Positions 5,172 to 64,000 of a stretch of DNA of 64,000 bases are shown here, one piece after another. The position numbers and the translations under genes were made by a program. Within the stretch, counting starts at the first letter, position 1. The number at the start of each line of letters is the position of its first letter. The notes under the pieces were generated by a model, which was given only the letters and a program-made list of their open reading frames with translations, made no database searches and had not been told where the DNA came from. The DNA is from Opitutaceae bacterium (GTDB lineage: Bacteria > Verrucomicrobiota > Verrucomicrobiia > Opitutales > Opitutaceae): contig JAUYAK010000124.1 in NCBI GenBank assembly GCA_030693515.1, forward strand, positions 1-64,000, read 5' to 3'.

Positions 5172-5175
5172 GGGG

Positions 5176-6707: not shown

Positions 6708-6719
6708 GACGAAGGTGCT

Positions 6720-7664: not shown

Positions 7665-7668
7665 GACG

Positions 7669-12098: not shown

Positions 12099-12119
12099 AG
12101 CTGGCCCCACGGTTGAAGC

Positions 12120-12410: not shown

Positions 12411-12413
12411 GAG

Positions 12414-12495
12414 ATAGGTCTCCGATTCGCCCGAAGTTGTCTGCGGAGATTACCGCAGTTCATTTGCTTCGGGCGGTCCAAATCGACAGACCTAT
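12414..12495 (-). promoter_or_regulatory. 82-nt multi-segment hairpin covering the virB2 ribosome-binding site
   Basis: Four nested complementary segments share one axis: ATAGGTCT (12414-12421) with AGACCTAT (12488-12495), CGATT (12423-12427) with AATCG (12481-12485), GCCCGAAG (12429-12436) with CTTCGGGC (12467-12474), and CTGCGG (12441-12446) with CCGCAG (12453-12458), for 27 base pairs in all. In virB2 mRNA the GGAG ribosome site lies in the outer stem, 3 bases before the start codon. The fold would block initiation unless opened. It does not match integron attC core sites. Confidence 0.75.
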
Positions 12496-12517
12496 TGCGA
12501 CCTAGAGCCGGACAGTT

Positions 12518-27948: not shown

Positions 27949-28361
27949 TTTGGTTTTTCACTGCGATTTTCGGACGAGGGAAGGACTTCGAGAAGGGAGG
28001 CGAGAAACGAGTCGGTGCTGAACGGCTTGTGGAGAATGCGTTCGACGCCGAGTCGCTCGGCTTCGAGCGATTCTGCCGGCGTGATACTGTCCACGAGGAT
28101 AATTGCGGGTCCGGTGAAACCGCGTTCGCGAAGTGCGGCCACGAGCGACAAGCCGGGGAGGCCAACCGGCGAGCGATCGGTGACCAGCAAATCAAAAAAA
28201 GATTCGGTGTTGAACGCGTGCAAAGCGGCGTCGCTGCTGCGAAACGACCGCACGCAGTATCGCTGACGTTCGAGCACGGCGCAGAGCACGCGGACGATTT
28301 CGCGTTCGCTTTCCACGAGCAGGATGCGGGAAGCCGATCGTGGCGTGGAGCGTGTCGGCAT
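27945..28361 (-). CDS. Receiver-only response regulator of the copper operon
   Basis: A 138-residue single CheY-like domain starting at the ATG at 28361. Phospho-acceptor Asp62 (LLVTDRSP), Ser92 and Lys112 (LHKPF) are present, but the acidic pair is weakened to Glu-Ser-Glu (VESER, residues 17-19). No kinase, DNA-binding or enzymatic domain is attached or adjacent. It is translationally coupled to the helical protein gene. It joins the unusual set of receiver-only proteins in this window. Confidence 0.85.
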   Translation of the reverse strand: MPTRSTPRSASRILLVESEREIVRVLCAVLERQRYCVRSFRSSDAALHAFNTESFFDLLVTDRSPVGLPGLSLVAALRERGFTGPAIILVDSITPAESLEAERLGVERILHKPFSTDSFLASLLEVLPSSENRSEKPK

Positions 28362-28401
28362 ATCATGGCCCGTGGTTGTTGGTTTTGCGGCAGAGGCATC
28401 G

Positions 28402-29664
28402 TCAGGCAGCGATAAGGTTGAGCGCGCTGCACACGACCGTGAGCGGACCATAGAGCGCGCGGTGGATGTGATCGCCGTCCACGCATTTGCTCGTCTGGTA
28501 GAGATCGATCTTCTCGACCGCGGGCCGGATGCGCTCGAATAGCTCGGCGAGAACCTCCGGCGGCCGGGCAGAAAGCAGATAGTTCAGAAAGAGCAGATTT
28601 CCGCGCACCACCGGTTGGAGCTCGGACGTGGCGCGCAAGCCTTCGTCCGTGATGGAATAGAATTGATAACCGTGCTCACGCAGGAACGCCGCGTAGGCGG
28701 GTGAGGACTTCACCGCCACCTCGGTAATGATGTCCGGCTTGAGCGCGGCGATGGTTTCACGGGCACCCTTGAAAAACGCGTCCTCAGCGCCCTCGACATC
28801 CACCTTCAGCACGAGCCGCCCGGACAGCGCGCGCGATTTCAGATACGAATCCAGCGTGACTGTTTTCACTTCAATCGGCGGCGCTTCGTGAAACGCAAAG
28901 TCGGGGCGCAGCGATGCGCTCATGTCGGAATCCGCGAGATAGAACGGAGCGGTGCCGTCGGCATCCGACAACGCGAGAGGTTCGCAGACGAGATGACGAA
29001 ATCCGTTGCTCGCCGCGTTCTTCGCCAACAGGGCGTGGTTCCTCGGGTTCGGCTCAAATGCGATGACCCGCAGGCTTGGCTTCTGCGCCGACAGCAGCAG
29101 CGAGAAAAATCCGATGTTGGCCCCCACGTCGATGAAGGTGTCACCGGGCCACACCAGCTCGCCCAGCACCATGCTCGTGATCGGCTCGTAGAACGTCGTC
29201 CCCTTCCAAAACACTTGGAAGCTCAGGTAATTTTCTCCGATGCTCGCCAACTTGATGTTTTTGCCATCGCGCGTTTGCACGCGCGCGACGCGCCCGCGGA
29301 ACCACTCCTTCTTTGTGCGCACCCCGAAGCGCAATAACGGCCGCTTCGCCGCAGGGAAAAGATTACAGGTGTGAAAAAGGCACGCACCTGCGACGCGTTT
29401 GAAGAAACGCTTGGTGTGTTCACGCCACGCGGGTGCGTCCGCGTCCCCGTTTTCCGCCGGCACGTCGGTCGGATGAAATCCGGCCGCCAACGCTGCCTGG
29501 CGGATTTGCCGTGGAGTGGTGGCATCCGTCGAATATTCGGCCACGACACGTCCAGACGCCGGATTTATTTCGACCGAAGTGACGCCTGGCAAAGCACGCA
29601 ACACGTCTGCTAGCCGTTGCTCGTCGGCGTCAGCAGGAGGGGGGATAAAAAATAGCGTCTGCAT
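28402..29664 (-). CDS. Fusion of an HMA-like domain to an FkbM-family methyltransferase
   Basis: A 420-residue protein. Residues 1-65 follow the ferredoxin-like HMA pattern (LADVLRALPGVTSVEINPASG, then IRQAALAAGFHP) but lack the CxxC metal site. Residues about 150-370 are an FkbM-type methyltransferase: SAM motif FIDVGANIGFFSLLLS, then VIAFEPNP and LVLKVDVEGAEDAFFKGA. FkbM enzymes O-methylate sugars or small molecules. Nothing in the chain suggests a signal peptide, so it acts in the cytoplasm. It lies between the RND pump genes and the copper receiver gene (40- and 12-base gaps). An HMA/FkbM combination is not one I know. Confidence 0.85.
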   Translation of the reverse strand: MQTLFFIPPPADADEQRLADVLRALPGVTSVEINPASGRVVAEYSTDATTPRQIRQAALAAGFHPTDVPAENGDADAPAWREHTKRFFKRVAGACLFHTCNLFPAAKRPLLRFGVRTKKEWFRGRVARVQTRDGKNIKLASIGENYLSFQVFWKGTTFYEPITSMVLGELVWPGDTFIDVGANIGFFSLLLSAQKPSLRVIAFEPNPRNHALLAKNAASNGFRHLVCEPLALSDADGTAPFYLADSDMSASLRPDFAFHEAPPIEVKTVTLDSYLKSRALSGRLVLKVDVEGAEDAFFKGARETIAALKPDIITEVAVKSSPAYAAFLREHGYQFYSITDEGLRATSELQPVVRGNLLFLNYLLSARPPEVLAELFERIRPAVEKIDLYQTSKCVDGDHIHRALYGPLTVVCSALNLIAA

Positions 29665-29676: not shown

Positions 29677-32600
29677 TCAATTGGACTGCGCCGGAGCGGT
29701 CGGCTGGGGGCTCGCCACGAGCGCGTCGAGCGGATCGACCTTGGCGCGCTCGAGATATTTTTCCGCGGCGCGGCGACCGAACTTGAAGAACACCGCCGGC
29801 GTCACCGCCATGTCGAGGAAGGTCGAGCTGACCAGACCGCCGAGAATCACGACGGCGACCGGATAGAGGATTTCCTTGCCCGGCTGATTCGCAGCGAGGA
29901 CGAGCGGGATGAGCGCAAGGCCAGCGACCGCCGCCGTCATGGTCACGGGCACGAGCCGCTCCAGCGAGCCGCGGATAATCATGTGCGCGTCGAATTTTTC
30001 GCCCTCGTGCTCCATTAAATGGAGGTAGTGCGAGATCATCATGATCGTGTTGCGCGAGGCGATGCCCGCGAGCGTGATGAGGCCAACGAGCGTCGCGATC
30101 GACACGGTGCCGACCATGAAATACGTGAGGACGAGCGCGCCGATGAACGCCAGCGGGATGTTGAGCAAGACCTGCGCGACAATCATGCCGGAGCGAAAAT
30201 GGCTGTAGAGGAGCAGGAAGATCGTGCCGAACGTGAAGAGCGCGAGAATGCCGATCACGCGCGTCGCTTCCTGCTGGCTCTGAAACTGGCCCTCAAAGCT
30301 GAGAAAATAACCCGTCTCCAGGTGCAGCTTTTCGTTGAGCGTGCTCTGAATCTCAGTGACCACCGAACCGAGATCGCGACCCGACACATTCGCGGAGACG
30401 ACGATCCGCCGCTGCACGTCTTCGCGATTGATCGCATTCGGGCCTTTGCTCTCGCGCACGTCGGCGATGAGATAGAGTGGCACCTTTCCGCCCACGGGCG
30501 CATCGATCAACAGATCGCGAATCACCGCCACGTTTTGCCGATGACGTTCGCCGAGCCTGACCACGAGATCGTAGGTGCGCTGGCCTTCGAGGATCTGCGC
30601 CACCGTGCTTCCGTTGAGCGCGGCTTCAAGCTGCTCGTTGAGCGAGCCGGGCTTGAGGCCATACATCGCCGCCTTCTCGCGGTTCACCTGAATCTTCACT
30701 TGATCGATCAGCACCTGCTTCTCGACCTGAAGATCCACCAGCCCGCTGATGTCGTGCATCGCCGCTTCCGCCTCAGCCCCGTAAGCGCGCAGCTTGTCGA
30801 GGTCGGGGCCGAAAATCTTTACGGCGATTTGCGCGCGCACGCCGGAGAGCAAATGGTCCAGCCGGTGCGAGATCGGTTGCCCGACACTGCTGACGATGCC
30901 CGGAATCTGTCCCAGCTTTTCGCGAATATCGTCGAGGATGGCTTCGCGCGTGCGCTGCGACGGTTTGAAATCCACGTCGATTTCTGTGTAGTGGACGCCT
31001 TCCGCGTGCTCGTCCAATTCCGCGCGGCCCGTTCGCCGGCCAGTCGATGCTACTTCGGGCACCTCTAACAACAGCTTCTCCGCGATGAAGCCGATCCGGT
31101 TCGACTCGACAAGCGACGTGCCGGGCGCGGACAGGATATTGATCGTCGAGGTGCCTTCGTTGAAGTCGGGCAGGAACAGTTTGCCCATGCGGGGATACAG
31201 CAGGAACGAGCCGGCCACCAGCAGCGCAGCCAGGACAATCACGATCCACGGATGCCGCATCGACGGGCGCAGAATGATTTTCTCGTCGAAGGCTTTTAGC
31301 CCGCGCACGAGCCAGCCATCCTTCTCGTGTTCCATCCGCTTCATCCGCGGCAGCAGATACGAGGCGAGCGCCGGAATGACGGTGAGAGACACGACAAACG
31401 ACGCGATCATCGCAACAATCGTCGCCACCCCGATCGGCGCGAAGAGCCGGCCCTCGATTCCACCGAGCGCGAACAACGGAATAAAAACGAGAATGATGAC
31501 GAGAGTCGCGTAGAGGATCGAATTTCTGACTTCGGAGGAAGCGCTGGCGATTACGCGCAACACCGGACGCGGATTCGGCAGATGCCGGTTCTCGCGCAGC
31601 CGGCGGAAAACGTTTTCCACGTCCACAATCGCATCGTCCACGACCATGCCAATGGCGACCGCCAGACCGCCGAGCGTCATTGTGTTGATGGTGATGCCGG
31701 CGAATTTGAAGTATAGGCCCGTGACGACGAACGAGAGCGGAATCGCCGTGAGCGTGATCAGCGTCGTGCGGAAATTCAGCAGGAAGAGGAAAAGCACGAT
31801 GACCACCATGATCGCGCCATCGCGAATCGCCTCTTCGACGTTGGTCACGGCCGCGCCGATGAAGTTCGCCTGCTTGAACAGGGTGACGACCTTCACGTCC
31901 GCCGGCAGCGTCTTGCCGAGTTCGGCGAGCGCCGCCTCGACTTTCTGCGTGAGCGAGATCGTGTCGCTGCCCGGCTGTTTCTGAACCGAGAGGATGACGG
32001 CAGGCTGGCCGTTCACGCCGGCATCGCCTCGCATCACCTGACGACCGAACTTGACCTCAGCCACATCGCGCAGTCGCACGGGCACGCCCTTGCGCACCAT
32101 CACGACTGTGTTGCCGATGTCTTCGAGCGAAGTTGTGCGGCCGATGTTGCGCACGAGCGCCTCGCGATTGGCGCTCTCCAGAAAACCACCGGAGCTGTTT
32201 TCCTGCGATTCGCGTGTTGCTACCATCACGTCATCGAGGCTCACGCCGAGCGCCGCCATTCTTTCCGGCGACGGGAGCACCTGATACTGCTTCACGCCGC
32301 CGCCGATCGCGATGACCTGCGAGACACCGGGGATCGTGAGCAACCGCTGGCGCACGGACCAGTCCGCCAGCGAACGAATGTCCATCGGCGCGGTCGCGCC
32401 ATTTTCGCTGCGCAGGCCGATGAGCATGATCTCGCCCATGATTGAGCTGATTGGCCCCATCGTCGGCGTGACACCGCGCGGCAGTTTCTCGGCGGCGAGC
32501 TGTAATCGTTCCTGCACGAGTTGGCGCGCGCGGTAGATGTCCATGCCCCAGTCGAACTCGACGTAGAGAATCGAGAGGCCGATGCCGGCGTTGGAACGCA

Positions 32601-51283: not shown

Positions 51284-51553
51284 TTATCCTTGGCGACGCA
51301 CCAACACACGCGTTAACGCCGACGCCAGATCTGCGATTGGCCGCGACATTTTTTCGGATTCGCCACTGGAGAGCGTTCGTTTCGTAGCCTCATCGCGAAG
51401 CTGCTCCATTTCGCCGTCCAAGACGACGAGGAGGTGTTCCACTTGCTCACTGTTCAGCTCCTCGGGGTCGAATTCGCCGGATGCCTTTCCGATGATCGAC
51501 TCAAAGTAAGAAGCGGCTTCCGCCGACAGCGGAGGTAGAATGAGACGTGCCAC
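51284..51553 (-). CDS. Small hypothetical protein
   Basis: An 89-residue protein from a GTG at 51553 (an ATG at 51592 is possible). It is acidic and helical (SEAAASYFESIIGK..EFDPEELNSEQVEHLLVVLDGEME) with coding-like composition. No family recognised. It opens the receiver cluster region. Confidence 0.5.
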   Translation of the reverse strand: MARLILPPLSAEAASYFESIIGKASGEFDPEELNSEQVEHLLVVLDGEMEQLRDEATKRTLSSGESEKMSRPIADLASALTRVLVRRQG

Positions 51554-51767
51554 GTTTTGAAGCCTTATCCCCAACCTTGAAATGCGAGGCAATCCACTTC
51601 GTTAGCACTACGATTTTGGAACACCCACCGCGCAAGAAAGCACAGCCGCGCTTCAGCCGAGAATGCCATTCCTTGGCGCCAAACCGGCGTGCACTTCCCG
51701 CTTGTGCTCGACCAGACCCGGGGTGCAATACGACCCGGCCCGTTCAAATCTCCGAAGACCTACCGCA

Positions 51768-52166
51768 ATGCCGACACTGCTCGTGATCGACGACAACGCT
51801 TCGGTGCGCGAGACGCTGTCGGAGTGGTTTACCCTCGGCGGCTATACCGTGCTCGAGGCGAAAAGCGGCCCGGAGGCTCTATCGCTCATGCTTCACGTGC
51901 GGATCGATGCCGCGATTGTGGATGTCCACATGCCACGTATGGACGGCACTGCGGTCTGCCGCGCTCTGCGTGCGCGAGCAGAAGCGTCGGCGCAAGATCT
52001 GCCCGTTTGGCTGATGACCGGGGCGCGAACAGCGGCCGATGCGAAATCGGCCCGCGACGCCGGGGCGCTCGCCATTTTGGGTAAACCTTTCGATCTCGGC
52101 GCTCTCGCGCAGCAAATCCACGAGCAGTTGCAGCGCAGTAACCGTGGACAAGTTGCCGCCTCGTAG
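51768..52166 (+). CDS. Receiver-only response regulator 1
   Basis: A 132-residue single CheY-like domain from the ATG at 51768. All conserved residues are present: Asp9-10 pair (VIDDN), phospho-acceptor Asp52 (IVDVHMPRMDG), Thr84 and Lys106 (LGKPF). No output domain follows. It is the only intact receiver on the plus strand in the cluster and converges with the next receiver, 2 bases apart. Closest within the window is the 54700-55161 protein (both have DVHMP and WxMTGA). Confidence 0.92.
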   Translation: MPTLLVIDDNASVRETLSEWFTLGGYTVLEAKSGPEALSLMLHVRIDAAIVDVHMPRMDGTAVCRALRARAEASAQDLPVWLMTGARTAADAKSARDAGALAILGKPFDLGALAQQIHEQLQRSNRGQVAAS

Positions 52167-52168
52167 AA

Positions 52169-52561
52169 TCAACGCGACTCCCTCTCATTCGGTGCGGACG
52201 AAAGCGCTGCGCGCAGATAGGTGGCAAAATCGCCGCGATCAGCGGAAAACACCTTGTTGGCTCCGGCCTCATATGCGGCGCGCTCCACTTTCGGATCGGT
52301 GCTCCCCGTCACCACCACGACGGGGCAGGTGATCCCTCGTTGCCGTAAACCTCGAATGAATTCCACGCCACTTTCACCGCCGAGTTTATTGTCGGTCACG
52401 ATTGCGTCGATCCTGGTTTGATCGAGCGCGGCACGCGCCGCCTGAGCAGAGGCACACGAAAGGATTTCCGCACCCTCGAATTGCCCCACTAACGCACGTT
52501 CCAGGAGGAATCGACCGTCTTGGTCGTCATCGACGATGAGAAAGGTGAAACCGATTGCCAT
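52169..52561 (-). CDS. Receiver-only response regulator 2 (no conserved Lys)
   Basis: A 130-residue receiver domain from the ATG at 52561. The acidic residues Asp11-13, phospho-acceptor Asp57 (IVTDNKLGG) and Thr85 are present, but the usual KP motif is replaced (VFSADRGD near 104-111). The pseudogene at 57536-57848 shares this TDNK signature and the missing Lys, so both belong to one subfamily. Confidence 0.88.
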   Translation of the reverse strand: MAIGFTFLIVDDDQDGRFLLERALVGQFEGAEILSCASAQAARAALDQTRIDAIVTDNKLGGESGVEFIRGLRQRGITCPVVVVTGSTDPKVERAAYEAGANKVFSADRGDFATYLRAALSSAPNERESR

Positions 52562-52724
52562 CGTGCGACCAGCATATTCTCCGGCCAACCGGTCGCAACT
52601 TGGTTCGCGTCGTCGTTTGCCAAATGCCACAATTATGGCAGCGTGTAAGGCTTCCACTGGATGAGGTCGTGAGCAGCATCCACAAACGTCGGGTGGACAA
52701 CTCCGCGCTGTCACCACATTCTAA

Positions 52725-53195
52725 CTACGATCGCCGCGCGAGCAAATTAAAGGCCGCGTCGAACACCTCTTTCTCGCGCCCCTTCGGTTGTCCGCTAAAT
52801 TTTTCAACAGCGCCGAGCACGTCGCGCATGACCGCAGGAGCCGGATGCTTGGTCAGGTAACAATCGGCGCCGAGTTTCGCAGCCTTGGCTATGTCCGCTG
52901 GATCGTCGGACGAGGACAGCATGATCACCGGCACCGAGTCGAATTCCTGACGCCGGCGAACCCACCGCAGGACATCAAATCCGTTCGTCCCCGGCATCTT
53001 GATGTCGAGAAAGCAGACCAACAGCACCTCATCACTTGAACCTTCGGCCACAGACGACAACCGCGCAATCGCAGCATCACCCGACAAAGCCGACCGGATC
53101 GGATTTCCGACGCCGGCTTTCTTCAACAGTCGCTCGAAAAGAAAAATATCCTCTTCGCCGTCGTCCGTGACGAGGACCACGCGCTCAATCTTCAT
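52725..53195 (-). CDS. Receiver-only response regulator 3 (Rcp1-like)
   Basis: A 156-residue receiver from the ATG at 53195. Asp11-12 (VTDDGEED), Asp64 (FLDIKMPGTNG), Ser94 and Lys116 (LTKHP) are present. The spacing, with a longer loop before the phospho-site, is of the Rcp1 type, which in cyanobacteria pairs with phytochrome kinases. A C-terminal helix of about 30 residues is added. Upstream 53220-53260 holds AGCAAGCC direct repeats and an inverted repeat. Confidence 0.9.
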   Translation of the reverse strand: MKIERVVLVTDDGEEDIFLFERLLKKAGVGNPIRSALSGDAAIARLSSVAEGSSDEVLLVCFLDIKMPGTNGFDVLRWVRRRQEFDSVPVIMLSSSDDPADIAKAAKLGADCYLTKHPAPAVMRDVLGAVEKFSGQPKGREKEVFDAAFNLLARRS

Positions 53196-53337
53196 GCTGG
53201 AATCGTGAGTGTCGCGGCCCAATCGCTCGATTAGCAAGCCGCTAGTTCCTAGCAAGCCATAGCGGCTCCACCGCTCCCTGCTCGACGGTATCAATGTAGC
53301 CAACAAATCGTTCGCTGCCGCACCAGCGAGGCTGCGC

Positions 53338-53550
53338 CTACTTTCCAAGTAGTCGAACCAGACGGAAAGCGATTTGGAGTTGGCGCAGGCGCTTGCCCTT
53401 TTCCCAATCCGACACGGTTTGCTGAGAGACGCCGCCGATCTCACGCGCAAATTGTCCTTGGTTCATCTTTAGCCGGATTCGCAATCGTCGAATAGCACCT
53501 GCCAGCACTGCGTTCGAGCGGTCTACGGATTTCGTCTGTCGGCGGGCCAT
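53338..53550 (-). CDS. XRE-family helix-turn-helix regulator
   Basis: A 70-residue protein, essentially one lambda-repressor-like HTH: IRRLRIRLKMNQGQFAREIG (helices 1-2) and VSQQTVSDWEKGKRLR (recognition helix). Such small regulators control adjacent genes or act as antitoxins. It follows the small reading frame 53554-53751 by 3 bases. Confidence 0.88.
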   Translation of the reverse strand: MARRQTKSVDRSNAVLAGAIRRLRIRLKMNQGQFAREIGGVSQQTVSDWEKGKRLRQLQIAFRLVRLLGK

Positions 53551-53553
53551 CGA

Positions 53554-53751
53554 TTAGCGGTCTGCATCAAGAAACGCGGCGCGTGAAGCGCCCGCACCCG
53601 CGGGGTCGGGTGCGGGCGCACGCGCTACCGTATGTCCTGCGGGCGGAGTCGCGATACCCCGCGCGGAATGCCCGGATACAATGTGAAGCTCATCGTGCGA
53701 GCATCGGTAGGTTTCGAGCCACGGTCGCGCTGGCTCGAAAGGAAAGTCCAA
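53554..53751 (-). CDS. Possible small protein upstream of the XRE gene
   Basis: A 65-residue frame ending 3 bases before the XRE start, compatible with an operon. The second half (VARAPAPDPAGAGAS) is encoded by a 12-bp perfect inverted repeat (53588-53599 and 53608-53619). No family match; coding is uncertain. Confidence 0.4.
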   Translation of the reverse strand: MDFPFEPARPWLETYRCSHDELHIVSGHSARGIATPPAGHTVARAPAPDPAGAGASRAAFLDADR

Positions 53752-53779
53752 GGGCGATCAGTCCGTGTGGAAACGCACC

Positions 53780-54001
53780 TCATGCCGGGGTTGGTGCCTC
53801 CTCGAAATGCGATGCCGGCGCGTGAAATGGCGGCGTAACGTCGCCGCCCGCCTCCGCCGCTCCCAGCCGGCCCTCCGGTATTGGCAGCCACTTTTTCGCG
53901 CTGCCATAGTAACGGCCATCGACCAAGCTCAGTATCGTCAGCATCCCAACCGCGGCGTATTCGAAATCCTCACGGGTTGGGGCATCCGCGCTGCTAAACA
54001 C
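53780..54001 (-). CDS. Small hypothetical protein
   Basis: A 73-residue frame with a GTG start at 54001 and an AGGG ribosome-like site. The segment FEYAAVGMLTILSLVDGRYYGSA is coding-like. It may form a short operon with the next two frames leading to the XRE gene. No family recognised. Confidence 0.45.
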   Translation of the reverse strand: MFSSADAPTREDFEYAAVGMLTILSLVDGRYYGSAKKWLPIPEGRLGAAEAGGDVTPPFHAPASHFEEAPTPA

Positions 54002-54053
54002 GCAGCCCTGATCGTTGAGGAATATGTATCGGGCCGGAGAACATGAGACGCGT

Positions 54054-54281
54054 TCAGGGTGACGCCGGGCGCTCTGGCGGCAAATTCACTTTTAGGCCGG
54101 GGTGCAAATCCGCCAGCACGTGCGCCCATGCGACCGCCGCATCGCTGTCGCCGTTGGAGTTTTGCTCAAGCACCCGAGCCAATGCCTCCGCAAGTGCACG
54201 GTCGCGGCAGGCTTCGTGCAGCTTTTGCCACTCTGTCTCGCCGCCGTGCAAAGCGGTGTTGAGTAGTTCTTGATCCGTCAT
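54054..54281 (-). CDS. Small acidic helical protein coupled to a receiver
   Basis: A 75-residue protein whose ATG overlaps the stop of the receiver gene 54278-54703 (ATGA). Sequence is helical and acidic (TDQELLNTALHGGETEWQKLHEACRDRALAEAL). Tight coupling suggests it works with that receiver, but no family is known. Confidence 0.65.
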   Translation of the reverse strand: MTDQELLNTALHGGETEWQKLHEACRDRALAEALARVLEQNSNGDSDAAVAWAHVLADLHPGLKVNLPPERPASP

Positions 54282-54703
54282 GGCACCGTGACTCTCATCC
54301 GCTGGACAACCTTCAACAGTTCCATGAACTGCGTAGGTTTGGTGAAAATGTGATCGACCGCGAATGCGAGATAGGCGGTGGCGTCAAACTCCGGCAAGTG
54401 GGAGCTGTGAACAATGATCTTTCCTGAAAAGTCAGTTTGCCGAATACGCTCAACCAGTTTGAGACCGGACAGGCGTGGCATGCGGTGATCCGTGATCAGA
54501 ACGTCGAAAAACTTCAAGTCCGCGGTAAGCCGCTCAAGCGCATGCTGTCCGTCTGCGGCGCATTCGACGAGATGTCCGGCTCCTTCCAGCGCGCGTTTCA
54601 ACAATTCTGAGAGGTGCACATCGTCTTCCGCACACAATACTCGCAGCGGTTTCCCCGCACTACCTTCGGCGGAACGCACCGTTGCCCTCCGGTCGCTGCT
54701 CAT
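54278..54703 (-). CDS. Receiver-only response regulator 4
   Basis: A 141-residue receiver with an N-terminal tail of 20 residues. Asp27-28 (CAEDD), Asp72 (LITDHRMPRLSG), Ser100-101 and Lys122 (FTKPT) are present. It is the intact relative of the degenerate receiver at 2284-2679. It overlaps the genes on both sides by 4 bases, so 55161 to 54054 is one translationally coupled operon. Confidence 0.92.
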   Translation of the reverse strand: MSSDRRATVRSAEGSAGKPLRVLCAEDDVHLSELLKRALEGAGHLVECAADGQHALERLTADLKFFDVLITDHRMPRLSGLKLVERIRQTDFSGKIIVHSSHLPEFDATAYLAFAVDHIFTKPTQFMELLKVVQRMRVTVP

Positions 54704-55161
54704 GGCGGGTTACTACTGCTCGCGCCATCGTCGACCGTAGTTGAAGGAAGCGACGGAAGCGGGGAAGAAAAGCCGGCCTCGAGCCTGGCTAAAAATGACG
54801 GGCACTCGAATGGTTTCGCGAAAACACCGAGCGCGCCAAGCCGGGCGCTGCGACGTTCAAGATCACCAGTGAACGCTCCTGTCATGAACCACACTCTCAG
54901 TTCGCGGCCGAGCGTTCGCGCTTGCGCTTGCAGACGCACGCACGTTTCCAAGCCATTCATCACCGGCATGTGCACGTCGATCAATGCTCCGTCGACGGAT
55001 TCCGTCGCCGCCAAAACAATCGCATTGGCGCCGGAGTCCGCGCCGATCACATTGTAGCCGGACAGCCGCAGGAGGTATACGAGCGAGACGCGCACGGAAT
55101 GTTGATCGTCGATTACCAGCATGGTGCGTTGCGTCTTTGGCTGTTCCGGGCTGTCGCTCAC
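54700..55161 (-). CDS. Receiver-only response regulator 5
   Basis: A 153-residue receiver. Asp18-19 (VIDDQ), Asp62 (LIDVHMPVMNG), Thr94 and Lys116 (FAKPF) are present; a Ser/Pro-rich tail of about 20 residues follows. It starts the three-gene coupled operon. The 196-base gap to the divergent XRE gene (55162-55357) holds no further gene. Confidence 0.92.
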   Translation of the reverse strand: MSDSPEQPKTQRTMLVIDDQHSVRVSLVYLLRLSGYNVIGADSGANAIVLAATESVDGALIDVHMPVMNGLETCVRLQAQARTLGRELRVWFMTGAFTGDLERRSARLGALGVFAKPFECPSFLARLEAGFSSPLPSLPSTTVDDGASSSNPP

Positions 55162-55357
55162 TTCGGCTCAAGGTGGGGTAGATAGGCAAATTCACGCAAC
55201 GCGAATGCGGGCGGGTGATGTGCTGCTGCCAGGAATCCCTGTCCACGGGCAACAACCAGGTTCAGCACCCGCGTCGCCAGAAGAGAAGAGCATCATCTTG
55301 GGCGCACGCTACGTTCATGACGTGGAGCGCTTCAAGCGGAAACGCTAGGATCGTAGC

Positions 55358-55621
55358 GTGACCGCCCTGGAGATCCTGCAACAAAACCTACGCAATCTAC
55401 GATTACGAATGGGTCTCACGCAGGAAAAGGCGGCAGAGAAAATCGGCGTCGCCTACCGTCATTTCCAGGCAATCGAAGTCGAGAAACGCGAAGGTCTGCA
55501 GTTAGCTACCGTTGAGCGGATCGCCAAGGGACTGAAAGTTGAAATTTGGCAACTTCTGCAAGCCGGCCATTTTCCACCGCCGGGCAAAACGCGCGGAAAT
55601 TCTGGACGGATCGAACGTTAA
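55358..55621 (+). CDS. XRE-family helix-turn-helix regulator, second
   Basis: An 87-residue protein with a GTG start. The HTH is NLRLRMGLTQEKAAEKIGVAYRHFQAIEVEK; the following LATVERIAKGLKVEIWQLL is the usual fifth helix. It faces away from receiver 5 and may control the divergent pair. Confidence 0.88.
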   Translation: MTALEILQQNLRNLRLRMGLTQEKAAEKIGVAYRHFQAIEVEKREGLQLATVERIAKGLKVEIWQLLQAGHFPPPGKTRGNSGRIER

Positions 55622-55711
55622 ACTAGCCGTCGTGTGAACTTGCCGCGACATCGTTGGCCGCGACGATTAGGGCATCGCAAGTGCGACTTCGCATTCGCCC
55701 AACAGTGCGCG

Positions 55712-55927
55712 TCAACCGGCGCAGACCACTGCGCCCGCAGGAGTGAGAAACCAGGCGCAATTATTTCGATCGCACTTGCGCCATGGTTCGACGCATAGGA
55801 CGGCGTGCCTCGGAGGGGGAATCAGCACGCCGCCCGTGGCCTCGCGCAGCGATGCGGCACGCGTGCCGGGGTTCGGGACGTTCGTCGCTGCGCCCGCCGT
55901 TCGAGCCCTTGATAGGGCGCGACACAA
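55712..55927 (-). CDS. Possible small protein in a 492-base gap
   Basis: A 71-residue frame with a coding-like second half (GVLIPPPRHAVLCVEPWRKC, then ending AGAVVCAG). No ribosome site or family. The gap 55622-56113 otherwise shows only overlapping Arg-rich frames. Confidence 0.3.
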   Translation of the reverse strand: MCRALSRARTAGAATNVPNPGTRAASLREATGGVLIPPPRHAVLCVEPWRKCDRNNCAWFLTPAGAVVCAG

Positions 55928-56113
55928 AAACTACGGCGAGCGTCTTTCCGCTCCTCACGTCCCGAGTCTCGGCATCGGCCGCCGGTTGTAGGCGCACGCG
56001 CGCTCACCAAAAATAAGGGCCACCTTTTCTGCGACGCGCCGCGATTGGAGCCGCTCGATGTTACGGCACTTGGTGCCGACGATAAATGTGCCTATGCACT
56101 CACGACTCGCGTG

Positions 56114-56518
56114 TCATCGCGGTGGTTTCGGCCACGCGTCGCGCACCATCCGCAGCGTTAAGTCTTCGCCGACGAAAGCCACCAGCAAACCAAGCACCTG
56201 GGCCACCAAAACCACTCCGCCCTCGAAAAATACGTCCGCGCCGACCTGCGCTTGAAGTTCCTCCAACCCTTCAAAAGCCCCATCTGCCTTCACGCGCACC
56301 GTGCGCAGCCAGGGGACTTCCGCCTTGGCCAGCGCGAGCGCGCGTGAAAGATGCGCCCAATACCCGGAGTTCCCCATTAGCGTCGCAAGATGGGGACGAA
56401 GTTTTTCACAAACGCGAAAGGCCGCCTGACTTTTTGTTTCGGAAGATTCATCTCCACTCCCCTCGGTGGCCATGAGATCCTTGGCGAGACGCCGCATTTG
56501 TGGAGAGCTTCGGCTCAT
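56114..56518 (-). CDS. Hypothetical protein of the receiver cluster
   Basis: A 134-residue protein: charged N-terminal helices (SQAAFRVCEKLRPHLATLMG, WAHLSRALALAKAEVPWL) followed by a hydrophobic C-terminal part (VFFEGGVVLVAQVLGLLVAFVGEDLTL) that could be a membrane-associated or buried helix pair. Codon use looks like its neighbours. Not recognised. Confidence 0.6.
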   Translation of the reverse strand: MSRSSPQMRRLAKDLMATEGSGDESSETKSQAAFRVCEKLRPHLATLMGNSGYWAHLSRALALAKAEVPWLRTVRVKADGAFEGLEELQAQVGADVFFEGGVVLVAQVLGLLVAFVGEDLTLRMVRDAWPKPPR

Positions 56519-56604
56519 TTGCTAACTCCTCCCGCCGATGCGCCGACTACGATTCCGTTCCCACACATACGTCCGTTTCTCCGGGCGCTCCGAACCGCAT
56601 CCTC

Positions 56605-57084
56605 TTAGCTTGCCTCTGCGGGAACCATGAATGCTACGCTACTCGACGTCGGTTGATTGAGTTGCAGCCAGTAACGTTTCACCAACTCCATCATTTCGCT
56701 CAAATCGAAAGGATTGGACGGCTTCACGAGGTAGGAGTTCGCGCCAAGCGAACAGGCCGTCTGAATGTCCGTTCGTTGCTGCGACGAAGTCAGCATAACG
56801 ACGAGCATCATATCCAATTCGCGCTGCTCGCGAATCCATTTCAGCACGTCGATTCCCATCACCCGCGGTAATTTCAAATCCAAGAGGACCAATGCGGGCA
56901 GCGGATACCGCGTGCGATCGCCGAAGTCGCCCTGACCGCTGAGATAGTTGATCGCCTGCGCCCCGTCTTCTACCACCTGGAGTCCGCTGGCGACTCCCGC
57001 CTTTTCCAACGCCATCCTCACGAAAACAACGTCATTTTCGTCATCCTCCACCAGCAGGATGGTCTGGGTGGTAATCGCATTCAT
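56605..57084 (-). CDS. Receiver-only response regulator 6 (Rcp1-like)
   Basis: A 159-residue receiver. Asp14-15 (VEDDEND), Asp69 (LLDLKLPRVMG), Thr99 and Lys121 (LVKPS) are all present. The longer beta3 loop and VLKWIREQRELDMM segment mark the Rcp1/CheY-like group often linked to phytochrome-type kinases. It stands alone between a hypothetical gene and the octamer repeat region. Confidence 0.92.
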   Translation of the reverse strand: MNAITTQTILLVEDDENDVVFVRMALEKAGVASGLQVVEDGAQAINYLSGQGDFGDRTRYPLPALVLLDLKLPRVMGIDVLKWIREQRELDMMLVVMLTSSQQRTDIQTACSLGANSYLVKPSNPFDLSEMMELVKRYWLQLNQPTSSSVAFMVPAEAS

Positions 57085-57281
57085 AATACTCCCGTTGACG
57101 CAGCCGGGACCAAAATTTGCTGCCTTGGCCGAGCGCCTATTTCACCAGGCACGCGATGCCGGTCGGAACCGGTAGATGCGCCAACAGCAGCGAGGACATT
57201 CTCAAACCACGCTCGAAGACCACGCCGCCCCCGATGGGGTAGCTGATTCTTAGCGGGACCGCCCTCAACTCTTCGCGCTCG

Positions 57282-57377
57282 ATGCCCGGATGCCCGGATG
57301 CCCGGATGCCCGGATGCCCGGATGCCCGGATGCCCGGATGCCCGGATGCCCGGATGCCCGGATGCCCGGATGCCCGG
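57282..57377. repeat. Twelve perfect copies of the octamer ATGCCCGG
   Basis: An uninterrupted 96-bp tandem array of ATGCCCGG. Because 8 is not a multiple of 3, copy-number change would shift any frame across it; the array is translatable in all frames on both strands as an 8-residue repeat, which is an artefact of periodicity. It lies in the 450-base gap between receiver 6 and a receiver relic; no gene is otherwise evident there (57085-57535). Confidence 0.95.
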
Positions 57378-57535
57378 ATTTTTTGAGAGTGGTTTACTCA
57401 GCTTCACGCAACCTAATTCTAGTCGTGGTCGTCACATTAGCGAGGACTGACTTGGGGAATCGCCCAGCGCGGCGGCAGCCGTCCCGAAAAGTTTACCGTG
57501 CTCGCCCAACCTCCGGCTCTTTCTAAATCGGGAAG

Positions 57536-57848
57536 GTGCTGCGCCAGACGTTTCCAGACTCGGAAATTTTTGGCGCCCGCGATGGGACCGAGGCGATGGC
57601 GATCCTGATGCGCCTCCGAGTGGACGCCGTCGTGACGGATAACAAAAATGTCGGCCATGTCGGGATTAGAGATGGTGCGGCAAATTCGACGAGCCGGTTC
57701 GCGAATTCCTATCATCATGCTCACCGGATCGGATGAGATTGAAAAGGACGCGTTGGACGCCGGAGTGACGATATTTCATCGCACATCGGAGTGGTCGAGC
57801 GTCGGCGCAGCTCTTCAGCGATGCTTCCAGCAGTCGGCAACGGATTGA
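57536..57848 (+). pseudogene. Frameshifted, N-terminally truncated receiver domain
   Basis: Two plus-strand frames together spell most of a receiver: frame one from 57536 (DGTEAMAILMRLRVDAVVTDNK) and frame two from about 57648 (MSGLEMVRQIRRAGSRIPIIMLTG, ending GAALQRCFQQS). The switch lies near 57645, right after the phospho-site Asp. The first strand with the acidic pair is missing. It belongs to the same subfamily as receiver 2. The 5' loss lies next to the octamer array. Confidence 0.8.
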
Positions 57849-57968: not shown

Positions 57969-58364
57969 CTATTTCCCTTTTACCAGGCCGAGCGCCTTTT
58001 TGATATTTTGCACGCTCGGCAGAGAAATGCCCACCGCCTTGGCGACTTCGTTCCCGGTCTTACCGGCCTCAACGAGTTTTTTCACTTCAGCCCGCATGGC
58101 ATCGGTGATCTTCGCACGTTTCCGGCGTTTGCCGGCGGTCGTTTTGGCCCCCGCGGCTACAGCTACACGGGGTTTGCGGCCAGGCCGTCCGCGCCGCGTG
58201 CCAGATGCGTTGCGCACAGCGGCGATGAACGCATCGACGCTATTAAACCCATACATAGCCGGTAGTGTCGCGAGTTCGCTGGCGAGTTCGGACGCGATGG
58301 ACGCTTCGAGCTGTGCTACCTTGGCACGCGTAGCAGCCAATTCTTTGAGAATGTCGGTATTCAT
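57969..58364 (-). CDS. Small DNA-binding protein with resolvase-type HTH
   Basis: A 131-residue protein from the ATG at 58364. An N-terminal coiled coil (LKELAATRAKVAQLEASIASELASEL) is followed by a Lys/Arg/Ala-rich linker (GRPGRKPRV, AGKRRKRAK) and a C-terminal HTH like that of Hin recombinases (MRAEVKKLVEAGKTGNEVAKAVGISLPSVQNIKKALG). It could be a nucleoid-associated or regulatory protein. No catalytic resolvase domain is present. Confidence 0.8.
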   Translation of the reverse strand: MNTDILKELAATRAKVAQLEASIASELASELATLPAMYGFNSVDAFIAAVRNASGTRRGRPGRKPRVAVAAGAKTTAGKRRKRAKITDAMRAEVKKLVEAGKTGNEVAKAVGISLPSVQNIKKALGLVKGK

Positions 58365-58561
58365 GTTTCGGAGTGGCAGAGGGCAGTGAGCCTTGGCGAA
58401 ATCACACGCCTGTCGAGACTCACCGGCGAGCCGGCTAGGGACGAGAAGTAAGCATCCGTTGCAGGTGTCTTCCTCACGGGAAAAGCCCCGACCCGCCACC
58501 GCCCCCTAACTTGGCTGCGACCGTGGCCAACCCAAGAATTCGAGGAGCATGATTCGTTCTC

Positions 58562-58656
58562 GGGGAAAGGGCTTTCCCCGCACGCGAGTCTCCGTCTCGC
58601 GCTCCCCTTTCTAGCGGGGCTCCGCCCCGCAACGCCCCGACGCCGGCTCGCGCCGG
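58562..58656. repeat. Four consecutive hairpins
   Basis: Adjacent perfect stems: GGGGAAA/TTTCCCC (58562-58579), CGCGAG/CTCGCG (58583-58601), GCGGGGC/GCCCCGC (58614-58630) and CCGGC/GCCGG (58643-58656). No T-run follows. The array sits in a 377-base stretch without an intact gene (58365-58741), beside the RND pump relic, and may be a REP-like mosaic or recombination hotspot. Confidence 0.7.
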
Positions 58657-58741
58657 AATTCTTCTAGCTGGCCGCTGGCCGTCGCAAGAAATTCGCTCAG
58701 TCACCGGCTTCGCCCGCACCCCAGCAATCGCTCAGGCGCTT

Positions 58742-59017
58742 ACGGCCGGACTCGCGTTGATTCCGCTTGTCCTGTCCGCGCACGAACCGGGCAAGGAAAT
58801 CCTCTATCCGGTCGCCGTCGTGATTCTCGCCGGATTGGTCAGCTCCACGTTCCTCGACATGGCCGTTACCCCGGCCGTGTTTTTCCGATTCGGTCGCAAG
58901 GCCGCCGAGCGCGCGCTGGCGCGCGCCCGCATCGATCCACTCGCCGAGCCGGCTCCCAAGCGCGACGGTCTTCGCGAGTTCTCCTTGCATCTTCGGTTTC
59001 AAGCGGCCTGCACTTAG
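58742..59017 (+). pseudogene. C-terminal relic of an RND metal-efflux pump
   Basis: About 91 codons match the C-terminus of the pump at 29677-32844: [33 protein letters not shown], and [20 protein letters not shown]. The preceding 1000 residues are absent. The relic lies on the opposite strand from the intact pump. It marks a deletion or rearrangement end point. Confidence 0.9.
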
Positions 59018-59936: not shown

Positions 59937-60887
59937 TCAGGCCGTCGGCGCAATTAGTCCCAAGCGACTGCCATCGCCGGTCACGACGAGTTGGCCCGAG
60001 GATTTCTCGCCGCGCAACAGCGCGTCGGCGAGAGCGTCCTGCATGAACCGCTCCACTGCTCCGCGCATCGGGCGTGCGCCCAGCGAGCGATGGTAACCTT
60101 GCCGCACCAGGAATTCGATCGCATCCGCGCTCACCTCCACGGTGTGACCCATGGCAGAGAGGCGGGCGATTTCGCTTTCGATCATCCCGGCGCAGATCGC
60201 GCGTTGGGTGGCGTAGTCGAGACGGCCGAATACCACGATTTCGTTGACGCGGCCCACCAGTTCCGGGCGCAGCCGCTCGCGCACCCGCATCAACACCGTG
60301 CGTTCGACCGACGCGAACGGCGCGGATTCCATGCGCATGGTTTCTTCCGACCCGATGTTCGAGGTGCAAACGATATAGAACGGCCGCAAGTCCAACGTCT
60401 CGCCGGTGGCCAGCGTCACGCGAGCGTCCTCGAGGATTTGCAGGAATAAGTCCAAGACCAATGGATGCGCTTTTTCGACTTCGTCGAAAAGCAATGTGCC
60501 GCGTGTCGCAGTTCGCAGCGCGCGCCCAAGCAAGCCGCGATCATCGCGGCTCTCGCCGAGGAGTTTATCGACGGAGCCCTGGAGTTGATATTCGGACATG
60601 TCGAACCGCACCGGCGCCGCACCATCGAAGAGATAGTCCGTGAACACATTGGTCGTCTCCGTTTTTCCCACGCCCGTCGGTCCGACCAAGAGGAAGGAGC
60701 CGCGCGGCCGGCGCGGATGCGCGAACCCAAGTTCGCCACGCGTCAGCACCGAACAGATGCGGGGCAGCGCATGTTGCTGGCCCCGAATCTTGGCGGCCAG
60801 ATGGGACGGCAGTCGGCGCAGTCGATCCGTCGTGGCGGAGCCGTTGCCGCCGGTCGTAACCGCTGACGCGCTCAATTGCGAAACCAT
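59937..60887 (-). CDS. Clp-type AAA+ ATPase of the transfer region
   Basis: A 316-residue protein corresponding to the second AAA+ module of ClpA/ClpB: Walker A GPTGVGKTETTN (about 69-80), DMSEY pore-loop region, Walker B LLFDEVEKAHP, sensor 1 CTSNIGS and sensor 2 GARPMRGAVERF. The N-terminal domain, the first AAA+ module and the ClpP-binding loop are absent. Its start overlaps the coupling-protein gene by 16 bases, tying it to conjugation. It could unfold or remodel a transfer protein such as the relaxase. Confidence 0.92.
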   Translation of the reverse strand: MVSQLSASAVTTGGNGSATTDRLRRLPSHLAAKIRGQQHALPRICSVLTRGELGFAHPRRPRGSFLLVGPTGVGKTETTNVFTDYLFDGAAPVRFDMSEYQLQGSVDKLLGESRDDRGLLGRALRTATRGTLLFDEVEKAHPLVLDLFLQILEDARVTLATGETLDLRPFYIVCTSNIGSEETMRMESAPFASVERTVLMRVRERLRPELVGRVNEIVVFGRLDYATQRAICAGMIESEIARLSAMGHTVEVSADAIEFLVRQGYHRSLGARPMRGAVERFMQDALADALLRGEKSSGQLVVTGDGSRLGLIAPTA

Positions 60888-62359
60888 GACGGCACCTTTC
60901 CATCCGCTCCACAGGGCGGGAGCGTGACCTTGCGAAACCCGCCATTGCAGTGCTGCACCACGGCTTCAAACCGCCGCAGCTTTCGGAGCTGATACGGTTC
61001 GAACCAGTATTTATCCTCGTCCGTCACGGAGGTGCTGCGCTTGCCGCCGGTATAACCAACGGTGCGCTTCTTGGCCTTGCGCTTCCCGATCGTGTCCGCC
61101 GCGATCTTCGCGGACTCCTCGTCAGCCGCACAGAAAGTGACCCGGTTGGCCATGTTGGCGATGAAGACCTTTGCTTTTCGCTCATCCCCCATCGGCGGAA
61201 TGAGGGATTGATACGACTGCGTTGCGGCCACCACAGTGGCGCGCGCCTCGCGAATCACATCGACCACATTGTAGTCGGACATCCCGTCGTCGGAGGCGGT
61301 CACGATTTTCTGTGCTTCGTCCGCCCAGAGAATGAGGAGGTTGTCATTCGCACGCACGGCGGCCGGTTTGTCGAATCGGCGCAACGCCTGGGAGTAGAAC
61401 GAAAGTTTCAAGAGCGTATTGATATAGCGGCGCTCGACTTGAAACCGCTGGGGCATCGAAACGCATACGATCTTGCCGAGCGCCAAATCGTCGAAACTGA
61501 AACTCGGATTCGAGGGGCAAAAAACTTCCGCCATGCTCGGCTCCGCAAAATAGTGGAGGTAGTTCGCGATGGTCGTTTTGATGCCACCGAGCTGTTCGGC
61601 CGGTTGCGCGCGAAACGCACTTTCGTAGTGCTCCACCAGTGCCCGTGACTCCGGGGTATTTTGCTCTCCCAGCACTTCCATGGCTTCCGCCAGCGCTTGG
61701 TCCGAGGTGAGCAGGCGATACGTTCTCGCCAGTGTCACCGGCACCCCGGCCGTCGCCAGGACATGGAACGCGAACTCCATCTGCACCTGGGCCTGCATTC
61801 GGAAAAACGTTTGCTCCGAGCGCTGGCCGACCGAAGCGGCCACGTCACAGACGATCTTGGCCTTGGCGGAAAACGGCAGATGGGGATTGGCCAGAAAATT
61901 AAACGTGTGCACCGGTTTCCAGTCGGATGCCGCATCGGATGGCCGGACCTGCAAGAGAATCAGATCTTTCTCGCGGCCGAGTTCGCGCAACATTGGGCGC
62001 AGCGTTTCCCAATACAGCCCCTTGTCATCGACGCAGACGCCGCCCCAATTCGGGCAATTCTGCGACACCTGCCACAGCATCCGATTGATCGCAGCACTCG
62101 TCTTGCCCGTGCCGACCTGCCCAGTGATGAGCCAGCCCCGGCAAAAGTCTTCCATCGGCCATAAGAATCCGCCCAAGCGCAACACGGGCTTCGCCATTCG
62201 GCGTCGCGAGTTGCTAACGGCGCAGTAAAGCTGCCAGCACGCGAACACCGCAAAACCGCTGGCGACGCCGCGCGCGATGAAAGCGCCAGGCCACAGCGCG
62301 AACGCGATCCAGACGCTCCCAGCGGCAAGCAAGAGATTCAGCAGCATATCGCGGCGCAT
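60872..62359 (-). CDS. virD4: VirD4/TraD-type coupling protein
   Basis: A 495-residue ATPase from the ATG at 62359 (a TTG at 62389 is possible). Two N-terminal membrane helices (about 8-45) are followed by Walker A (ITGQVGTGKTSAAIN), Walker B (LLILWADEAQ) and the C-terminal segment NRVTFCAADEESAKIAADTIG shared with TraD/TraG proteins. Coupling proteins bring the relaxase-DNA complex to the secretion channel. It lies between a small gene and the AAA+ gene. Confidence 0.93.
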   Translation of the reverse strand: MRRDMLLNLLLAAGSVWIAFALWPGAFIARGVASGFAVFACWQLYCAVSNSRRRMAKPVLRLGGFLWPMEDFCRGWLITGQVGTGKTSAAINRMLWQVSQNCPNWGGVCVDDKGLYWETLRPMLRELGREKDLILLQVRPSDAASDWKPVHTFNFLANPHLPFSAKAKIVCDVAASVGQRSEQTFFRMQAQVQMEFAFHVLATAGVPVTLARTYRLLTSDQALAEAMEVLGEQNTPESRALVEHYESAFRAQPAEQLGGIKTTIANYLHYFAEPSMAEVFCPSNPSFSFDDLALGKIVCVSMPQRFQVERRYINTLLKLSFYSQALRRFDKPAAVRANDNLLILWADEAQKIVTASDDGMSDYNVVDVIREARATVVAATQSYQSLIPPMGDERKAKVFIANMANRVTFCAADEESAKIAADTIGKRKAKKRTVGYTGGKRSTSVTDEDKYWFEPYQLRKLRRFEAVVQHCNGGFRKVTLPPCGADGKVPSWFRN

Positions 62360-62415
62360 GGCGCCTACGATAACTGACCTTCGAATCAAAATTCGGGTTA
62401 GAACGGTTCGCCGAT

Positions 62416-62799
62416 TTATTGGGACGGTTCGCGGATTTCAGCTGCGCCTGACCGGGGACGCACTTCGATACGCGTGATGAAGGGTTGCCCGGCCTCACCG
62501 GGCGGCCGGTAGTCCGGCGGAAAATCCCGCACCGAACTCACGCGGAACGCCGCCAGATCGGGCAGCAGCGCCCGCAGTTTCCGACCTTGAATCACTACGA
62601 CGTGGTTGGGAAAGGAAAGTTCGAGCCGAGTGCTGCCTCCTAACTTCGCATTGGCGAACTGCGCCCACGGCAGCACCCACGTATCGCCTTCCCAAATGGA
62701 CACGACGAGCGTCGCGACCGGCGCGGAAGCGACCACGAACGCGGCCTCTGCCGTTTGTGTTGCGCGGCGTTCAGCGAGTTCTTCACGGAGTGTGCTCAT
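62416..62799 (-). CDS. Small protein between relaxase and coupling protein
   Basis: A 127-residue protein whose ATG overlaps the relaxase stop (ATGA). The middle is beta-rich (PVATLVVSIWEGDTWVLPWAQF, RLELSFPNHVVVIQGRKL), resembling a small single-domain binding protein. No family recognised; its coupling to the relaxase suggests a relaxosome role. Confidence 0.7.
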   Translation of the reverse strand: MSTLREELAERRATQTAEAAFVVASAPVATLVVSIWEGDTWVLPWAQFANAKLGGSTRLELSFPNHVVVIQGRKLRALLPDLAAFRVSSVRDFPPDYRPPGEAGQPFITRIEVRPRSGAAEIREPSQ

Positions 62800-64000
62800 A
62801 CGGCGACGCGATGGCGGACCTGTTGTTTCTGGCCTTGCTGGACGATGGCCATATGCGCGTTGTGCAGACGCGTGCGCTCGACGGCTTCGAGCACGCGCGC
62901 CGATTCTTCGGCCGCCTGCCGGCGTTCTGCCTCTGCCGTGATCTCATTTTGCAGATCCATCGCCAACTCACGACCGCCGACGCGCACCACATTGGCGCGC
63001 AGTTCGTCACGGTCGGAGGTGAAAACCATGACGCGCTTCCGCCCGCGGGAAATCGTGACATACCACTGTTCCGCACTCGTCGCGGCGCGATTCGCCGCAT
63101 CCGAGAAAAGCACCGTATCCACGGTCTTGCCCTGCGAACCATAGGAGGTGACGGCGTAGCCGCGGACCAGCACGCATTGCGCGGGCGCGACAGTCTTTCT
63201 CTTTCCCTCCGCGCCCGCCACGCTCAGCACTCCGTCAGCGGCGATGCTGTGCACGGTCACGAGTTCGCCATTGTTGAGCGGCAGCCCCTCGCGAGACGTT
63301 GCGTTCAGCTTGAGCTGCAATCGGTCGCCCGGCGCAATCTCCAGCTCGCGGCGGGTAGTGACGACGATGCGCTTGGCGTAATGGTAGCTCAGGGTCGAAC
63401 GCCGCCCGTTCTTGATGATGACGAGACCGCGAGCATTCGCCTCGACGATCTCGCAGAGTTCGCCTTTGGCGTAGCGACCGTAGCGCTGAATGAAACACGC
63501 ATATTGGCCGAGCCGGTAAAAACGCGGGTCGCGTTTTTGGGCTTCGCCCAAGTCAACTGGCTGGAAAGTCGGAAGCGTCTTGCCCGTCTTGATCTGGCCT
63601 GAATCCCGCAGCCGAGTGCGAACCGTTTCGTTCACGGCGTTTGCCTCGTCTCGGGTTTGCGCGACCACCAGTGCATTCTCGTTCCGGCCGACCGCCGCGA
63701 GATATTCGTCCGCCAGCCTAGCGCGCCGCTCCCCACCGCCGCATTCGCGCACGCAGCCGAGCCGGTCGAGCCGGTCGTATGAACCGACAATGTCGCCGGT
63801 CGCAGCAGCTTTGACCGCGGCGCGATACTGGCGGATGAAGCCCCGTTCTTTGGCCGACGCACCGAGAGCCGGATCTTGCCGGCGAATCTCTCTCAGCACC
63901 GCCGGTTTCAGCCGGGCGTGCTTCTCAATCGCGCGGAGCGCGTCGGAGGCCGCAACCGCGCCATGCTGGCGCGTGTCGCCGGAAAGGATCAGCCGGCCGG
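62796..64000 (-). CDS. traI: MobF-type relaxase/helicase TraI, C-terminal part (5' end outside window)
   Basis: At least 401 residues, open to the window edge. It is the SF1 helicase half of a TrwC/TraI relaxase: motif III GDTRQHGAV at the edge, motif IV region ALVVAQTRDEANAVNE, motif V YAVTSYGSQGKTVD and motif VI YVTISRGRKR, followed by a helical tail. MobF relaxases nick oriT and unwind the transferred strand. The N-terminal relaxase domain and oriT should lie to the right of the window. Confidence 0.93.
   Translation of the reverse strand, partial: GRLILSGDTRQHGAVAASDALRAIEKHARLKPAVLREIRRQDPALGASAKERGFIRQYRAAVKAAATGDIVGSYDRLDRLGCVRECGGGERRARLADEYLAAVGRNENALVVAQTRDEANAVNETVRTRLRDSGQIKTGKTLPTFQPVDLGEAQKRDPRFYRLGQYACFIQRYGRYAKGELCEIVEANARGLVIIKNGRRSTLSYHYAKRIVVTTRRELEIAPGDRLQLKLNATSREGLPLNNGELVTVHSIAADGVLSVAGAEGKRKTVAPAQCVLVRGYAVTSYGSQGKTVDTVLFSDAANRAATSAEQWYVTISRGRKRVMVFTSDRDELRANVVRVGGRELAMDLQNEITAEAERRQAAEESARVLEAVERTRLHNAHMAIVQQGQKQQVRHRVAV

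Follow-up and report, generated by a model that had tools for sequence, protein, structure and literature searches.

A candidate receiver-repressor island without its own kinase in an Opitutaceae MobF conjugative element

What does a group of phosphorylation receivers serve in a place with no kinase of its own? The question is raised by a 6-kb gene cluster (positions 51,768–57,848) of Opitutaceae bacterium assembly GCA_030693515.1 (genome 6.65 Mb, 130 contigs), within the analysed window, i.e. positions 1–64,000 of the 82,263 bp contig JAUYAK010000124.1 (hereafter C29). Related genomes and named relatives used for comparison belong to the Opitutaceae and Verrucomicrobiota. The reading that we favour, with chances that we consider about evenly balanced, is a mobile and reshuffled regulatory island of receivers and repressors without its own kinase, situated in the control interval of an Opitutaceae element with MobF relaxase and type IV secretion system (T4SS), which appears capable of passing between bacteria. 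Such an island would probably be a portable control module listening to the host's own sensors.

The six receivers of the cluster (R1–R6) each matched Pfam family Response_reg over the whole protein and no other family, as had been claimed from the letters and open frames alone (the sequence-only reading). The acid pair, phospho-Asp, Thr/Ser and Lys of the phosphorylation site are all present in R1, R3, R4, R5 and R6, and the claim of six intact receivers thus stands for their number, with five complete sites, but not for the site of R2, in which the switch Lys is replaced by Ala. At the same position, R2 relatives have Thr, Tyr or Trp, and judged by sequence the R2 subfamily is likely a family of pseudo-receivers. 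The switch Lys is gone in every member of the subfamily seen, and the Asp also in two. The decayed seventh receiver was recovered as described: this relic of the R2 subfamily has lost its N-terminal part including the acid pair, and the remainder is divided between two frames. Two further receivers, placed by the same reading in the copper operon (RCu) and after the secretion operon (RT4), do exist, and both are degenerate.

In total, eight single-domain receivers are located on C29 versus about 12 in the remaining 6.56 Mb, when 0.25 would be expected on the contig (P ~3e-10), the genome count of about 20 comprising open frames of at most 215 amino acids plus R3, and the number outside C29 being a minimum. 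If all 96 receivers of the genome are taken as the base, the enrichment on C29 has P ~3e-5. The clustering of receivers on the contig is not a matter of chance.

No HATPase_c domain, indicative of histidine kinase or CheA, was found along the entire 82,263 bp of C29, while 65 matches were obtained in the whole genome. CheA, which would appear as such a match, is absent from the contig, and the receivers do not have the gene neighbourhood of a chemotaxis CheY; in both respects the earlier statement that kinases and chemotaxis genes are lacking nearby was correct. Its companion, the lack of output domains, applies to the receivers themselves but not to their surroundings, where DNA-binding proteins are present (two XRE proteins in the cluster; a sigma factor and an AraC regulator elsewhere in the element, outside the receiver cluster). 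With one receiver domain, no output domain, no adjoining cognate kinase and, in five cases, a complete site, the island receivers resemble CheY, DivK, MrrA, LovR and Osp, from which they differ in that a conjugative element carries them as a group and in their linkage to small XRE repressors.

The suspected location on a mobile element was supported by a MobF relaxase (TrwC), a TrwB-like coupling protein and a VirB4/TrbI T4SS, which are divided over both sides of the cluster on one contig. The relaxase, coupling protein, AAA ATPase and T4SS are in the same order as in the Opitutaceae MobF/T4SS elements of G231 and G172. In G231, relaxase, coupling protein, AAA ATPase, divergent XRE, AraC and T4SS genes form one uninterrupted run, and G172:C20 has this order with an additional R4-type receiver between XRE and AraC, the receiver frame and AraC overlapping by 14 nt. 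In contrast, between its AAA ATPase and AraC genes the window copy carries the receiver island as well as a large cargo for metal efflux (copper/CusABC). Since both transfer halves are contiguous in G231 and G172:C20, the island and cargo lie inside the element, in its control interval. The T4SS genes occupy 3.3–12.4 kb. The genes scanned included no integrase, the window had no tRNA, and up to the contig end at 82 kb no element end was seen. Plasmid records gave no R5 relative, the sole find being a distant coupling-protein match in Termitidicoccus mucosus. Elsewhere in the family, G255 (7.9 Mb) had 23 TrwC relaxase matches, an unusual MobF load for one genome.

Expansion of the receivers by recent duplication, for which phylogeny had been suggested as the check, was not supported. 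In a maximum-likelihood tree of 63 sequences, R4 grouped with the receiver of G239:C22 (96/89) and R5 with the copies of G239 and G202 (100/99), and in an extended tree R5 grouped with the copies of G239, G202 and G362 (100/98). Similarly, R3 grouped with a receiver of the same genus (G013:C19; 99/96), R2 with receivers of the same genus and of G135, which we take to be O. terrae or like it (97/89), and RT4 with a receiver inside the G172 T4SS control region (99/56). R6 was placed among Rcp1-like receivers, in a clade that also holds R3, and its best PDB sequence matches were phytochrome response regulators such as RphyB, RcpB and Rcp1; the likeness to Rcp1, RcpA/B and RphyB is thereby drawn from PDB matches for R6 and from the tree clade for R3. 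Unlike in the island, where the contig has no kinase, Rcp1-like relatives in L009 and L012 adjoin receiver-bearing multidomain proteins. Duplication in place was rejected, as in the trees every receiver falls beside receivers from other genomes and not beside its neighbours, and on these trees the cluster is seen as assembled from distinct lineages, not amplified in place.

The synteny check that had been proposed turned out positive, as parts of the cluster recur on other elements. The recurrent partner of the receivers is a small XRE repressor, which the sequence-only reading had listed and left unused in its interpretation. The block XRE1-R4-R5-XRE2 was found in another genus (G239:C22, a 59-kb contig also carrying a MobF relaxase) with identical order, strands and 4-bp overlap, and with identities of 66% (XRE1), 51% (R4), 65–68% (R5) and 45% (XRE2). 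Ratios of non-synonymous to synonymous substitution rates (dN/dS) against these counterparts were ca. 0.12 for XRE1, 0.29 for R4 and 0.27 for R5, with dS near saturation, and by this sequence measure XRE1, R4 and R5 are shown to be under purifying selection. In a third genus (G202:C17), an R4/R5 pair together with a divergent XRE is located 3 kb from a relaxase. The window's convergent pair of R1-type and R2-type receivers has a counterpart in G319:C214, where the R2 copy is itself frameshifted, and a homologue (48%) of the small island gene w54054 overlaps an R1-type receiver in G326:C97. Divergent pairs of XRE and R4-type receiver were present in G172 (twice), G000:C26 and G080:C32. The XRE-receiver gap of G172 contains three palindromes (G)CCGTC-N4-GACGG(C), two of them perfect, which fit the sequence expected of repressor operators.

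Besides XRE1 and XRE2, a third small XRE family (XRE3; 78 amino acids, about 80% identical) is mobile and present in several genera. The exact 18-bp motif CCTGACTACTGTCTGTGT precedes XRE3 in five genomes, in four of which XRE3 is beside receivers, and the motif is a probable autoregulatory operator or promoter of the family. In the fifth genome, a 2-kb stretch (G202:C11; L268) is 97.9% identical to one in another genus (G080:C5; L267), includes the XRE and the 18-bp motif, and ends where G080:C5 has its receiver; from its identity the stretch is read as a recent transfer. A small XRE gene within 1 kb of an R4-type receiver was observed in 8/9 element-borne cases versus 0/15 chromosomal ones (Fisher 1.2e-5), the element-borne set having come from receiver searches, with an XRE profile seeded with some of the same XREs.

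In the island, R5, R4 and w54054, in this order, overlap by 4 bp at each junction and look like one translationally coupled operon, which faces XRE2 across 196 bp (125 bp in the divergent R5/XRE2 gap of G239:C22). This divergent unit, with the second small XRE (XRE1) behind it, would form the core of the favoured receiver-repressor island. As the most economical model, in which every molecular step is inferred, the XRE proteins would repress the divergent promoter region and in this way set receiver expression. Host kinases would phosphorylate R1, R3, R4, R5 and R6, a step proposed since the contig yielded no kinase. Once phosphorylated, the receivers would act through contact with other proteins, in the simplest case the XRE or AraC regulators, and element genes for transfer or metal cargo would thereby be coupled to host signals. 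R2, RCu and RT4 may be phosphorylation-independent binding partners, or they may be decaying.

The arrangement is similar to phage-like or integrative and conjugative element (ICE) repressor switches and to restriction-modification (R-M) control proteins, in that a small HTH_3 protein is divergent from the facing gene, in G172 with palindromes in between. The difference from all of these is that the facing gene is a stand-alone receiver, not Cro, an antirepressor or a restriction gene. XRE2 was R-M control-protein-like in PADLOC, and a weak likeness of both XRE1 and XRE2 to HipB-like antitoxins and to R-M control proteins speaks for a toxin-antitoxin, defence or phage-repressor locus misread as signalling. 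Against this, scores for the named families were all far under the curated cut-offs, and no toxin, nuclease or restriction partner was found in the cluster. As family searches gave no supporting match, a defence or toxin-antitoxin locus was rejected, and we consider this misreading very improbable.

Several observations weigh against the receiver-repressor switch, among them the selection of the 8/9 set mentioned above. The partner XRE families differ, and therefore co-conservation does not establish a specific XRE-receiver contact; four of the receivers (R1, R2, R3 and R6) may have come along as unrelated passengers. The 196-bp region of the window itself showed no clear operator. Finally, among 35 other MobF regions (1.3 Mb), picked without regard to receivers, a receiver of at most 200 amino acids was present in two, versus 2/20 background regions (0.4 Mb). 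This level does not exceed the background, and conjugation therefore does not require receivers; the idea that MobF elements in general carry stand-alone receivers was rejected, and receiver carriage is a trait of a subset of elements.

The same survey bears on the original interpretation as a phosphate sink or hijacking system, in which the receivers drain or redirect phosphoryl groups of host kinases, or inhibit a kinase directly, for the benefit of the element. Single-domain receivers are documented in these roles: MrrA as a phosphorylation hub, LovR of Caulobacter as a phosphate sink which drains or redirects phosphoryl groups, and Osp of Rhodobacter as a direct kinase inhibitor (PMC5964349, PMC9430884). 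Because of these precedents, a hijacking role is possible by analogy, and the contig without kinase and the five complete receivers agree with it. A uniform, general sink is not supported, since receivers are atypical of MobF elements and three of eight on the contig (R2, RCu and RT4) are degenerate, lacking phosphorylation-site residues, and the conserved XRE linkage favours a regulatory circuit. The sink or hijack as the explanation is, in our estimate, distinctly unlikely, and is compatible with the favoured receiver-repressor island, not exclusive of it.

A stronger competitor is that the locus is a cargo hot spot, which has collected ordinary orphan receivers of hosts together with small regulators unrelated to them, without any function in common. 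Many orphan receivers are found on Opitutaceae chromosomes, the receivers of the cluster represent several subfamilies which did not arise together, the same area contains repeats, the receiver relic and the remnant of a CusA gene, and MobF elements generally are not receiver-enriched. Such passive collection leaves unexplained that sub-blocks are kept across genera in order, strand and overlaps under purifying selection, that the XRE-receiver linkage is repeated, and that the R1/R2 pair is conserved in the genus. We regard it as improbable, but less so than the sink.

Returning to the receiver-repressor island, it is known for few systems by what means a conjugative element senses the condition of a host that it has newly entered. 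If the model is true, portable receivers dependent on host kinases would give the element a simple input that adapts to the host, and the co-travel of orphan receivers and small XRE genes would be explained. XRE2 with R4 and R5 are testable partners in a phylum in which conjugation has received very little study. In the literature searched, which left most subscription journals outside, there was no account of orphan or single-domain receivers on ICEs, or together with XRE, in such an arrangement; the parts are of known kinds, and their recurrent combination on conjugative elements was found in neither the searched literature nor the plasmid records. More tentatively, and with more doubt than confidence on our side, XRE genes and kinase-less receivers may be an exchangeable cassette reading the phosphorelay state of any host, with pseudo-receivers as phosphorylation-independent antagonists, and thus a new kind of mobile-element control circuit.

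Table 1. Coordinates of receiver, repressor and transfer features on C29 (window numbering unless indicated) and of motif sites in other loci.
Feature	Position	Strand	Evidence or remark
R1, stand-alone receiver, complete D-D-D-T-K site	51768-52166	+	Pfam Response_reg, site residues
R2, stand-alone receiver, lysine-less subfamily	52169-52561	-	Pfam
R3, Rcp1-like stand-alone receiver, complete site (Ser for Thr)	52725-53195	-	Pfam
R4, stand-alone receiver, element-associated subfamily, complete site E-D-D-S-K	54278-54703	-	Pfam
R5, stand-alone receiver, complete site	54700-55161	-	Pfam; 4-bp overlap with R4
R6, Rcp1-like stand-alone receiver, complete site	56605-57084	-	Pfam
Receiver relic, R2 subfamily, frameshifted	57536-57848	+	two frames; alignment to R2 subfamily
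RCu, degenerate receiver in metal-efflux operon	27945-28451	-	Pfam; part of acid pocket and Thr/Ser lost
RT4, degenerate R4-type receiver ending T4SS operon	2284-2784	-	Pfam; phospho-Asp to Glu, Lys absent
XRE1, small HTH_3 repressor-like protein, 70 aa	53338-53550	-	Pfam HTH_3
XRE2, small HTH_3 repressor-like protein, 87 aa	55358-55621	+	Pfam HTH_3
R5/XRE2 divergent intergenic region, 196 bp, predicted XRE operator/promoter region	55162-55357		
w54054, small four-helix protein, 75 aa	54054-54281	-	4-bp overlap with R4
w51284, small helical protein, 102 aa, TTG start, divergent to R1	51284-51592	-	
w56114, conserved hypothetical adjoining R6	56114-56518	-	without Pfam match
HTH_23-like DNA-binding protein	57969-58409	-	HTH_23 match just under cut-off
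Right half of transfer region	59937-64000	-	Pfam AAA_2/ClpB_D2-small, TrwB_AAD_bind, TrwC
AAA ATPase, ClpB-like	59937-60887	-	
T4 coupling protein, TrwB-like	60872-62389	-	
MobF relaxase (TrwC)	62796-65642 of contig	-	running past window end
Left half of transfer region: AraC regulator and T4SS genes (VirB4-like, TraG_N, TrbI)	3309-13405	-	
AraC regulator	12518-13405	-	left half
CCTGACTACTGTCTGTGT sites upstream of XRE3	L238:1830-1847, L147:5677-5694, L258:1277-1294, L285:2391-2408		

The remaining genes of the island are small. Two XRE proteins and one further HTH protein had been counted in the cluster, and all three are there, the last as the sub-threshold match in Table 1. A homologue of w51284 (40% over 91 amino acids) adjoins an R1-type receiver and XRE3 in G000:C117, and a homologue of w56114 (49%) is found in a MobF element of G114, which also carries an R6-type receiver. 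The AlphaFold model of w54054 has four helices with a mean predicted local distance difference test (pLDDT) score of 80; the modelled helices had no PDB relative and thus gave no hint of an Hpt domain.

No operator common to the window and G239 intergenic regions was found, and a promoter scan of the cluster gave matches no more numerous than in shuffled sequence. Upstream of XRE1, at ca. 53588–53619, there is a perfect hairpin with 13-bp arms (GCGCCCGCACCCG...). The interval from R6 to the relic contains a perfect 8-bp tandem repeat, GATGCCCG, in 12.4 copies (57281–57379). Further downstream, a GC-rich 86-bp non-coding sequence (58562–58647) is 83% identical to a sequence of the G239 element (L238:3103–3185) and looks like a dispersed repeat. 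On the plus strand, 58690–59000 holds a remnant of the C-terminus of a CusA-type efflux pump, 111 bp of which match the pump gene (29773–29883) with 88% identity.

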